From Rhodobiaceae bacterium (lineage in GTDB: Bacteria; Pseudomonadota; Alphaproteobacteria; Rhizobiales; NORP267): a DNA stretch of 64,000 nucleotides. The stretch spans positions 1 to 64,000 of the forward strand of contig JAGRLG010000040.1 of NCBI GenBank assembly GCA_020441905.1, written 5' to 3'. Positions 38,950-42,585 of the stretch are shown here, piece by piece. The first letter of the stretch is position 1, and each line of letters starts with the position of its first letter. Made by a program: the position numbers and the translations under genes. The notes below the pieces were generated by a model, which was given only the letters and a program-made list of their open reading frames with translations, was not told the origin of the DNA and made no database searches.

Positions 38950-40221
38950 CTAGGCCGGCGCGCGCCCGCTGCCTTGCAGCGGGCCATAGCCGACCGCCGC
39001 CCTCTTCTCGTCCGGGGTGAGGAAATCGGCCTCGCGCAGCCGGTTCCACAGCGCCTCGCGCTCGGCCCCGAGGGCATCGATGCGGTCGAGATCGACGGCA
39101 AGGCGCAGATCGGCGCCGAAGGCCGGGGCCAGCCAGGCGGAAAACGCCTTGGCGAACTTGCCCGCCAGCGGCAGCACGCCCTGGCGCCAGAAGGCGCGGT
39201 TGGCCTCCTGGTAGTTGGAATAGGTATTGTCGCCGGGAATGCCGAGCAGCATGGGCGGCACGCCGAAGGCAAGGGCGATATCGCGCGCCGCGGCGTGCTT
39301 GGCGTCGGTAAAATCCATGTCGCGGGGGGAAAGGCTGGTCGCCTTCCAGTCCAGCCCGCCCTCCAGCAGCAGCGGCCTTCCGGCATTTCCCGCGCCCTGG
39401 AAGCCCTGCTCCAATTCCTCTTTCAGCCGCTCATATTGTTCGTGGCTGAGGCCCATTCCGGCTTCCGCCGGGGCATAGACCAGCACGCCGGAGGGCCGCG
39501 CCGAATTGTCGAGCAGGGCCTTGTTCCAGCTTCCCGCCGCATTGTGGATATCGACGCTGGCGGCGGCGGCCTCCAGCGGGCTCATGCCGTAATGGTCATC
39601 GGTGGGGTGAAACAGCGCGAGGTGCAGGATTGGCCGCGCGCCGCCGGCGCCTTCAGCGTCGAAGCGCATGGTCTGGCCGCCGGCGGAATATTCATAAGAT
39701 TCCGGCCAGCCTTCGGCGCCCGGCACCACCTTCATGCGGTCGGGGCGCAGCACGTGCAGCTCGCGCGGGGCGCCGGAAAGCGACACCTGCTCCAGATAGG
39801 CATTGCCGGAAATCATCAGATGGCCGAACAGGGCCTCCAGCATCTCGGCGCCGCCCTGGCGCGGATTGGGCCGCTCCAGAAGGTCGAGCAGCGGATGGGT
39901 GTCGAGTTCGCGTCCGCCCTCATAGGCCAGCCAGGTCAGCGAGCCGGCGGCTTCCGAGATCATGCGCACGCAGCGATAGACCACCGCATTGCGGGCAAAG
40001 CCTTCCCTCGCCAGGGCGGCATAGTCGCGCGGCGTCCACACCGGCCGGCCCTGGCTTTGCAGCGCGATGAGGGCGCCGGTGGCCGAAGCCTTGGCGCCAG
40101 CCAGCCGGCCGGCAAGCGGCCCGCCCGGCGCGGCGGCGGGCGTGGCGCCCGGTTTGGCAGCGGACATGGCAATGCGATCCGCGCCCAGCCAATGGCCGAG
40201 CCGGTTGAACAATGAGGGCAT
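38950..40221 (-). CDS. Portal protein, HK97 family (g3-like)
   Basis: A 423-residue portal subunit forming the DNA-entry ring. Family segments include ARNAVVYRCVRMISEAAGSL, HLMISGNAYLEQV, PIHH-like HLALFHPTDDHYGMSPLEAA, GVPPMLLGIPGDNTYSNYQEA and FWRQGVLPLAGKFAKA. Unlike the overlapping genes downstream it has its own strong ribosome-binding site (GGGAGG five bases before ATG), fitting its position just after the inserted HEPN cassette. The 109-base gap between the cassette and this gene is AT-richer and shows no other signal. Confidence 0.95.
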   Translation of the reverse strand: MPSLFNRLGHWLGADRIAMSAAKPGATPAAAPGGPLAGRLAGAKASATGALIALQSQGRPVWTPRDYAALAREGFARNAVVYRCVRMISEAAGSLTWLAYEGGRELDTHPLLDLLERPNPRQGGAEMLEALFGHLMISGNAYLEQVSLSGAPRELHVLRPDRMKVVPGAEGWPESYEYSAGGQTMRFDAEGAGGARPILHLALFHPTDDHYGMSPLEAAAASVDIHNAAGSWNKALLDNSARPSGVLVYAPAEAGMGLSHEQYERLKEELEQGFQGAGNAGRPLLLEGGLDWKATSLSPRDMDFTDAKHAAARDIALAFGVPPMLLGIPGDNTYSNYQEANRAFWRQGVLPLAGKFAKAFSAWLAPAFGADLRLAVDLDRIDALGAEREALWNRLREADFLTPDEKRAAVGYGPLQGSGRAPA

Positions 40222-40330
40222 GATGCCTCCCGTTAGGAAATTGAAAACGTTATGCTAGGAGTTTTGTTGGCGATCGGACAAACCGAATAGACAAATCCGT
40301 TTCCGAAGGCCCGGGCAGGAACCAAGTATT

Positions 40331-40801
40331 TCAGTTCCTGTTCTTAAAAAGCACGTAGGCAGCAAATGCACAACGGTCACGCCTATGCTCAACTTCAAAC
40401 GCACGCATAGCTTCCTCAGCAGCATTTATGTCCTGTCGCACAGCAGATTTTGAGAAACTAACTGTTGGGTCATAATCCGCTTTATGTCTTTTTTCCTGCA
40501 TCGCAACAAACATATTGGCAAAATCTTCAATTCCCTTCGGGAATTTTGATATTATTTCTCCGTTGCGACATGTATTTTTCGCAAACCCATGTTCTAATGC
40601 ACGGTATACTTGTCGCCACGCCTCATTACTTCGGGTAGATTTTGTGCCGCCTATCAAGAGATTGGCGCCACAAGCAGCCAGCGTATGAAATAAAGCATAG
40701 TACGCAGTACTTGTAGCTCTTCGCAATACTACTTGCGAAGGCTTGCCGTTAGAAACGGTAAGCATGCGTTTTGACAGATCTATATAGTCACGCGGCTTCA
40801 A
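40331..40801 (-). CDS. HEPN-domain protein (UPF0332-like) inserted in the GTA cluster
   Basis: A protein of about 156 residues. The HEPN/UPF0332 core is seen in VVLRRATSTAYYALFHTLA (about 25-43), a long helical middle, and RHKADYDP near residue 115, where the family has R-x-x-ADY. HEPN proteins are often ribonucleases or parts of toxin-antitoxin and defence modules, but the classical R-x4-6-H pair is not clear here, so activity is uncertain. TTG at 40801 near the upstream stop is my preferred start; a TTG at 40834 or ATG at 40765 is possible. The gene is AT-richer than its neighbours (33% and 50% GC in two 60-base lines counted by hand), suggesting acquisition. Confidence 0.7.
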   Translation of the reverse strand: MKPRDYIDLSKRMLTVSNGKPSQVVLRRATSTAYYALFHTLAACGANLLIGGTKSTRSNEAWRQVYRALEHGFAKNTCRNGEIISKFPKGIEDFANMFVAMQEKRHKADYDPTVSFSKSAVRQDINAAEEAMRAFEVEHRRDRCAFAAYVLFKNRN

Positions 40802-41078
40802 AGCCGAGTTTCCGCGCGTCGTTCTTTGAGACAAACGACATGAGCGGGAACGCCGCTTCGCCCGCCTCTTTTAGCTTGGGCCGAAGGTGCCTAACCATGC
40901 TTGCAACCTTCGCAGCATCCAGGTCCGACTTGGCCTCGAATATGATCGTAACATCAAGAACCGAGTCATCCTCGTAATCTAGGCTACGTTCAACCGAAAC
41001 CTTAAGAATCTTCACGCCATCAAGGCGGCTCTTGACGAGATCGCTTATTAATTTTTCGATTCGTGATTCAGAGATCAT
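40788..41078 (-). CDS. Partner protein of the HEPN gene, unknown family
   Basis: A 96-residue protein with a helical N-terminus (ESRIEKLISDLVKSRL), a strand-rich centre (ILKVSVERSLDYEDDSVLDVTIIFEA) and the C-terminus VRHLRPKLKEAGEAAFPLMSFVSK. It lacks the G-S and D-x-D motifs of MNT nucleotidyltransferases, so it is not a classical HEPN/MNT partner. GAGGTGA lies six to seven bases before ATG 41078; a further ATG exists at 41108. It overlaps the HEPN gene, implying coupled expression and a possible antitoxin or adaptor role. The 157 bases to terL upstream are AT-rich without a clear promoter. Confidence 0.7.
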   Translation of the reverse strand: MISESRIEKLISDLVKSRLDGVKILKVSVERSLDYEDDSVLDVTIIFEAKSDLDAAKVASMVRHLRPKLKEAGEAAFPLMSFVSKNDARKLGFEAA

Positions 41079-41235
41079 GGCGCTCACCTCAGATTGGAGC
41101 CGGACCATATCAACAACCGTTCCAATATCAAATCACGTGTCCGTAAAAATTCTTACCCCAGTTAACAATATTAGACCAGCGGATCCGCAATACCAATTGG
41201 CTAGCCACTCCAAAGAAATCCGCAATGGGATCCAA

Positions 41236-42585
41236 TCAGAGCGGGCGGATCCTCGGCCCCGCCCCTCCCCCTTCCAGCATCAGGGCGGTGAGGGCCCAGA
41301 CCAGGGCATCGACGCGGTCGGGGCTGCGCCCGCCCGACAGGCCGTCGGGGCCAAGGTCGCACATCTCGTCCTCGAGCTGCGGCAGGGCGCCGACATGGGC
41401 GACGCGGCGCTGCTCGTAAAGGGCGGCCACCGGCTCGGCCCTGGTCCATTTGCCCCTTGAGGCGCGCACCGCCCTGATCGGCAATTGCGGCGCGACCTGG
41501 CGCAAAACCGCCTCGGCCATCTCGCCGCCCTGGTTGACCTCGACGACGAGGCGGTCGGCGCCAAGCTCCTCGAACAGGGCGACGGCGCGGCGTGCCCAGG
41601 CCGCCGGCTTCAGCCCCCTTTCGCTGCGGTCGGCGAGCACATAGGCGCGCCCGTCCGCGCCTTTTCCCGCCGCGACAATGCCGCAGGCATCGGCGTTGCG
41701 GCCCGAGGATGCCGGCGGGTCGACGGCGACGACGACGCGGGCAAGCTCCGGCGCGGCGGTGATGCGCGCGGCCTCGATCTCGGCGCGCGACCACAGGGCG
41801 TCGGGGCGGTCTTCCAGCACTTCGCCGTCCAGTTCCTGGCGCCCCAGCCGGGTGCCCGCATAGCCCGCGACCACGGTCTTGAGGAAGGCGGGGGCGAGAT
41901 TGTGGGCGTTGGCCCTGGTGGCGGCCCTGGAGAGCACGGTGTCGGGGGCGGCCATCAGCTTCCTGATCAGCGGAATGGCGCGCGGCGTCGTGGTCACGAG
42001 CTGGCGCGGCGCCTCGCCGAGGCGTAGGGCGAATTGCAGCATGTCCCAGGTCTCCTGCGCATAGCGCCACTTGGCCAGTTCGTCGCACCACGCAAGGTCG
42101 AATTGCGGGCCGCGAAGCGAGTCCGGCTCCTCGGCGGAGTACATTTCCGCCACCGCGCCATTGGGCCAGACGAGGCGGCGGCGGGCAATTTCAAGCCGAG
42201 GTTTTTCACCTATCGGGTGAACTGAAAGCAAGCCAGAAATACCATCGACCATGACCTCGCGCACGTCGGCCATGGTCTGGCCGACGAGGGCAATGCGGCC
42301 CGCCGGAGCGCTGGCGAAGGGCGGGCGCCCCAGCGCCATGGCGCGCACCCATTCGGCCCCTGCCCTGGTCTTGCCGGCGCCGCGCCCGCCCAGCATCAGC
42401 CAGGTCGTCCAGCCGCCTTCGGGAGGCATCTGGTCGGGGCGCGCCCACAGCGGCCAGTCATGGGCGAGGAACTCAAGCTCCCTCGCGCTCAGGGCCTTCA
42501 GGAAGCGGCTCACCGCCCCGGGATCTCGCGAGGCGAGCAAATTTTCGCGCAAGCTCGGCGCGCAGGCGCTCGATGTCGCGTTCAT
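41236..42585 (-). CDS. Large terminase ATPase/nuclease (g2-like)
   Basis: The DNA-packaging motor, 449 residues. Walker A is LGGRGAGKT (65-73), Walker B lies in QFDLAWCDELAKW and the coupling segment is LVTTTPRAIP. The C-terminal RNase H-like nuclease shows VVVAVDPPASSGRNADACG, VVEVNQGGEMAEAVL and the final DRVDALVWALTAL. The ATG used overlaps terS by 113 bases; a GTG at 42513 would reduce this to 41. In GTAs this enzyme packages host DNA by headful. Confidence 0.95.
   Translation of the reverse strand: MNATSSACAPSLRENLLASRDPGAVSRFLKALSARELEFLAHDWPLWARPDQMPPEGGWTTWLMLGGRGAGKTRAGAEWVRAMALGRPPFASAPAGRIALVGQTMADVREVMVDGISGLLSVHPIGEKPRLEIARRRLVWPNGAVAEMYSAEEPDSLRGPQFDLAWCDELAKWRYAQETWDMLQFALRLGEAPRQLVTTTPRAIPLIRKLMAAPDTVLSRAATRANAHNLAPAFLKTVVAGYAGTRLGRQELDGEVLEDRPDALWSRAEIEAARITAAPELARVVVAVDPPASSGRNADACGIVAAGKGADGRAYVLADRSERGLKPAAWARRAVALFEELGADRLVVEVNQGGEMAEAVLRQVAPQLPIRAVRASRGKWTRAEPVAALYEQRRVAHVGALPQLEDEMCDLGPDGLSGGRSPDRVDALVWALTALMLEGGGAGPRIRPL

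Follow-up and report, generated by a model that had tools for sequence, protein, structure and literature searches.

The stretch of DNA analysed here, which we call the window, comprises 64,000 nucleotides of a Rhodobiaceae contig (JAGRLG010000040.1) and contains a complete RcGTA-like cluster, a virus-like set of genes through which this bacterium would send DNA to neighbouring cells and in which ordered head-tail genes go together with GTA-specific families (matches to GTA_TIM, Rcc01698_C, GTA-gp10, DUF2460, HK97 capsid, protease and portal). Between its large terminase and portal genes lies an insert carrying two minus-strand open reading frames, one for a HEPN/UPF0332-like protein and one for an overlapping partner of 96 residues (Table 1). 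An initial sequence-only reading had described these two genes, the AT-richness of the block and the strong ribosome-binding site that the portal gene keeps for itself, and all three descriptions hold; the block itself is larger than the 750 bases or so first given to it, at about 1.0 kb. GC content falls from about 0.69 to 0.45-0.49 over 40250-41250, and GC3 is 0.39 in the HEPN gene and 0.61 in the partner gene, whereas the GTA genes on either side have 0.83-0.86. The genome (about 2.8 Mb) holds a single copy of the pair.

Table 1. Coordinates of the insert, its flanking genes and the replacing pair in a sister genome
Feature	Coordinates	Strand	Remarks
GTA portal (flank)	38950..40221	-	own Shine-Dalgarno GGGAGG 40231-40226, 4 nt before ATG
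AT-rich insert	40222..41235	.	between large terminase and portal genes
HEPN gene (presumed toxin)	40331..40801	-	156 aa from TTG 40801; alternative TTG 40834 gives 167 aa
Partner stop / HEPN start overlap	40788..40801	-	14 nt
Partner gene (presumed antitoxin)	40788..41078	-	96 aa; ATG 41078; from ORF, linkage and predicted KH type-II-like fold
Partner Shine-Dalgarno GAGGTG	41090-41085	-	6 nt 5' of ATG; sequence read
Promoter-like TTGATA-16-TATGGT	41104..41131	-	just 5' of partner Shine-Dalgarno; not above chance
GTA large terminase (flank)	41236..42585	-	borders the insert
SocA_Panacea protein, 89-aa partner beside	L231:3277-4127	-	slot where sister genomes hold the HEPN pair

The HEPN gene had been read as starting at 40834. 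We consider the downstream TTG at 40801 probably the true start, because it creates the 14-nt overlap that occurs more often than any other geometry in the family (35 loci) and because 68 of about 104 loci agree on one register for the start of the HEPN domain when counted from the stop of the partner. Translational coupling of the two genes through this overlap is likely. The insert lies in an orientation compatible with co-transcription with the GTA cluster; a promoter scan at the insert returned one site where 1.2 were expected, and no convincing repeats flank the insert in the window.

The HEPN protein and its partner

Taken alone, the Pfam HEPN match of the window protein falls short of the cut-off (15.2 bits where 22 are required; E 0.024), yet the assignment is firm because profile and structure add to it. 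The family profile matches AF0298 (2hsb) at E 4.7e-5, and the AlphaFold model (AF2, 76 sequences; pLDDT 93.7) finds its best solved counterpart in the same protein (Z 11.1), followed by the sacsin HEPN domain (9.3) and HepT (8.0). The predicted model and the profile place the protein in the HEPN superfamily, with its four-helix core fold, and structure prediction thus supports the fold on which the sequence-only reading depended. The canonical Rx4-6H motif is absent from all 76 members, with no histidine at +5 to +7 after R116. Eleven positions are invariant among them (Y45, Y46, F49, W73, R78, H82, Q113, R116, D120, Y121 and P123), and H50 is present in 75 of the 76. Since the canonical motif is missing family-wide, calling the protein an RNase requires an alternative active site. 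Such activity is possible by analogy, because HEPN-T and AbiV proteins are described in the same motif state, with an aspartate replacing the histidine and another conserved histidine that may serve, in the HEPN survey (PMC3710099).

The partner matches no Pfam, NCBIfam or PADLOC family and has no sequence link to any known antitoxin. The GS...DxD motif of MNT proteins is not conserved in the 76 partners, nor is there an MNT Pfam match, in agreement with the first description of a protein of unknown family lacking this motif. By its predicted model (pLDDT 94.5; topology alpha-beta-beta-alpha-alpha-beta) the partner is a KH type-II-like fold. With regard to the GXXG/AXG loop of KH type-II domains, the feature noted is a G/S at position 60 that interrupts the two paired helices. 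Its top solved matches are KH type-II proteins, namely ERAL1 (Z 9.2; 2.5 Å over 85) and Era (8.3-9.0), with RbfA (7.9; 2.5 Å over 77) and ribosomal S3 (up to 7.6) further down, an overall KH range of 7.3-9.2 that lies only moderately above the usual background. Because these values exceed the background no more than moderately and a profile comparison with RbfA (hhalign) gave a probability of 0.3%, hence no sequence link, we claim a KH-II-like fold and not homology. Foldseek returned a single MNT row for the partner (7aer, E 5.8e-3), among unrelated two-layer folds; we rejected identity as an MNT protein because of the missing motif and the topology of the model. Nucleic acid is the usual ligand of KH-like folds, and the partner might, by analogy, be an RNA-binding cofactor instead of an antidote.

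The pair is a conserved and mobile unit

A search for the same pair elsewhere, proposed in the sequence-only reading, found it widely. With an iterated partner profile, the partner lies directly upstream of 117 of 120 HEPN ORFs, the remaining three being at contig ends, and the same profile found no partner away from a HEPN gene in this set of loci. Of 297 genomes of the host order, 18 encode HEPN homologues (this count includes the genome of the window), as do 30 plasmids, of which 27 are from Rhizobium. Pair-bearing plasmids come from Rhizobium and Acidisoma, and some copies adjoin replication genes. The number of relatives reported from a scan across species genomes is 512, and the best 80 of these 512 are distributed over at least seven phyla (Alpha- and Gammaproteobacteria, Chloroflexota, Acidobacteriota, Latescibacterota, Spirochaetota, Rhodothermota and Marinimicrobia). 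The GC content of the module is about 9 points under that of its flanks, and lower than them in 96% of 56 loci. The pair thus spreads horizontally as a unit, and gene order, overlap and tight linkage bear out the earlier suggestion of an acquired, toxin-antitoxin-like organisation.

Comparison of the window with its relative L080 gave pS 0.88 and pN 0.22 for the HEPN gene and pS 0.79 and pN 0.31 for the partner gene; low pN against near-saturated pS indicates that both genes are under purifying selection. Mean column identity is 46% in the HEPN alignment and 32% in that of the partner, which appears from these sequences to evolve faster.

Two other origins were considered and rejected. An element borne by an integrase or transposase does not fit, the best-represented neighbour families holding no mobility gene and the window no convincing flanking repeats. 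Phages as the main origin do not fit either, with only three loci found in two scans of IMG/VR, two of them in GTA-like contigs; GenBank phages gave no match to the pair. Chloroflexota loci L115, L129 and L151 carry two or three HEPN-partner copies inside 12 kb, and DUF58/DUF4129 genes recur among the neighbours surveyed. In 43 of 56 loci the pair and its upstream neighbour point in the same direction, while downstream genes have no bias. Insertion of the pair near 3' ends or terminators is possible. In a search mostly outside the subscription literature, we found no published paper on this pair.

The terminase-portal slot

The two flanking genes had been taken as normally adjacent in GTAs. 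This stands for most of the 129 junctions examined in the host order (median 168 bp, measured from the terminase end to portal residue 42) and fails for a sizeable part, as 37 are longer than 500 bp, 32 of them longer than 800 bp. The slot is permissive for cargo, given these 32 long junctions and the variety of what they hold: a HicA/DUF1902 pair, sulfhydrylase-like, SDR and regulator genes. In one genome (G056; L196:379-819, minus strand) a HicA toxin and its DUF1902 (HicB-like) partner occupy the interval, and in three genomes of one genus (G096, G059 and G011; L171, L175 and L194) an O-acetylhomoserine sulfhydrylase-like gene lies there on the opposite strand. The site is not unique, because an enlarged gap between portal and protease is frequent too, with values above 1 kb in about 20 genomes on visual reading. 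One genome (G235:C90:248974-265915) has two terminase copies about 15 kb apart and an expanded portal-protease gap. A keyword search of the accessible GTA-cluster literature returned no mention of junction cargo.

An empty site was found in the two nearest relatives read there, both of the same family (L028 and L030). Most related GTAs lack the pair, and only four of the roughly 120 HEPN-bearing loci in hand lie in this slot, which does not support a pair special to GTAs. Besides the window, these are two IMG/VR contigs (L077, whose HEPN frame is broken, and L078) and a Sphingopyxis MAG (L146). The HEPN of the window falls together with that of L080, a locus on a chromosome flanked by ppx and an RNase D-like gene, and that of L078 falls together with a Blastomonas locus that has no GTA gene in its vicinity. 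A single clade of junction copies was rejected (p-AU 0.011). These groupings with non-GTA loci, together with the rejected one-clade tree, indicate that the slot was reached independently.

Discussion

We propose, with a probability of about 0.65, that the insert constitutes a toxin-antitoxin-like module of two genes, translationally coupled and spread horizontally, that settled in a permissive GTA slot. Gene order, overlap, linkage, spread over phyla and plasmids, low GC and a faster-evolving partner all fit this reading. The organisation resembles that of type II systems, being a small, tightly linked and horizontally mobile two-gene operon with the presumed antitoxin upstream, a position common in type II pairs according to the HEPN survey (PMC3710099). 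The strongest clue is an allelic exchange. In G028 and G107 the pair lies between an SDR gene and sdhA; in G138, of the same genus and with flanks 94-97% identical, that slot holds a SocA_Panacea protein (E 5.3e-10) and an 89-aa partner. As the 89-aa neighbour has no Pfam match, this second pair is only presumed to be a toxin-antitoxin system.

In the mechanism that we envisage, the upstream partner would be translated first and would bind and silence the HEPN protein. The latter, of AF0298/UPF0332 type, may bind RNA and probably cleave it, or else stop translation, with the invariant R116, D120 and Y121 and the conserved H82 and H50 as a putative site in place of the canonical Rx4-6H; its toxicity, its neutralisation and an RNA target are presumed from this model. 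Having landed in the terminase-portal slot in the orientation of the GTA genes, the module may be transcribed with the cluster. Coupling of the pair to particle production is speculation, and a stabilising effect on the cluster, also suggested in the sequence-only reading, would be hypothetical. It is tempting, and rather doubtful, to go further and suppose that a KH type-II antidote senses the state of RNA or ribosomes and releases the HEPN protein, which in GTAs would couple particle production with RNA shut-off in the producing cell.

An alternative that we regard as unlikely is anti-phage defence by abortive infection, in which the KH-fold partner would restrain the HEPN protein until components of phages or GTAs, or RNA damage, are detected, in the manner of Tha or AbiV. 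The HEPN model is structurally related to AbiV (9bj6, titled as an RNase in a two-component antiphage system), although at a low Z of 5.8; both proteins may make similar use of an alternative histidine, and prophage-borne HEPN systems with an inhibitor exist, as in Tha/Ith (PMC11087260). Against this, neither protein matches PADLOC, and the link to defence islands that the sequence-only reading raised was not found: in about 40 loci, with crude gene calls, the neighbours are mixed housekeeping genes with no enrichment of defence genes and no sign of phage origin. LypABC is an example of an immune-like system bound to GTA biology (PMC13236601).

Improbable, in our view, is a functional GTA gene pair, kept because it regulates or assists GTA production, for example by shutting off host RNA when particles are made. 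Its presence in four GTA-like clusters, in the same slot and orientation after separate acquisitions, would suit such a role. However, nearly all sampled GTAs of the host order lack the pair, the only copy found within a GTA among the 18 HEPN-bearing genomes is that of the window, the slot takes varied and unrelated cargo, and long portal-protease gaps occur as well. Most improbable is an inactive remnant, a non-toxic RNA-binding HEPN/KH pair drifting as passenger DNA, which would agree with the lost canonical motif and the broken frame of L077 and is opposed by the 11 invariant positions, the low pN and a pair that is never split in complete loci.

The analysis defines a widespread and unnamed two-gene HEPN module, and it shows the GTA terminase-portal junction to be a repeatedly used landing slot, reached by this module in at least three independent events. 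The antidote-like partner is of a kind not described before; because it is not an MNT protein, a new mode of neutralisation of HEPN proteins becomes testable.

Among known systems, HepT-MntA (HEPN-MNT, type VII) is similar in its two-gene operon with a small partner upstream and HEPN downstream, and HepT-type structures match the HEPN model at Z 6.7-8.0. In contrast, the partner described here lacks GS...DxD and has a KH type-II-like model, and the HEPN protein lacks RX4HXY. The HEPN-T/UPF0332 group (AF0298, 2hsb, PF05168) provides the best profile and fold match and, in the accessible sections of the survey, shares the aspartate in place of the catalytic histidine and a conserved histidine elsewhere. 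Its Pfam family itself matches weakly (8 of 76 members at E<0.01), and those sections describe no obligate KH-like partner. The partner shares its topology with KH type-II proteins such as Era/ERAL1, RbfA and ribosomal S3, unlike them in sequence. Finally, the SocA/Panacea-containing pair is located in a sister genome at the corresponding chromosomal slot, whereas its proteins are unrelated to those of the HEPN module.
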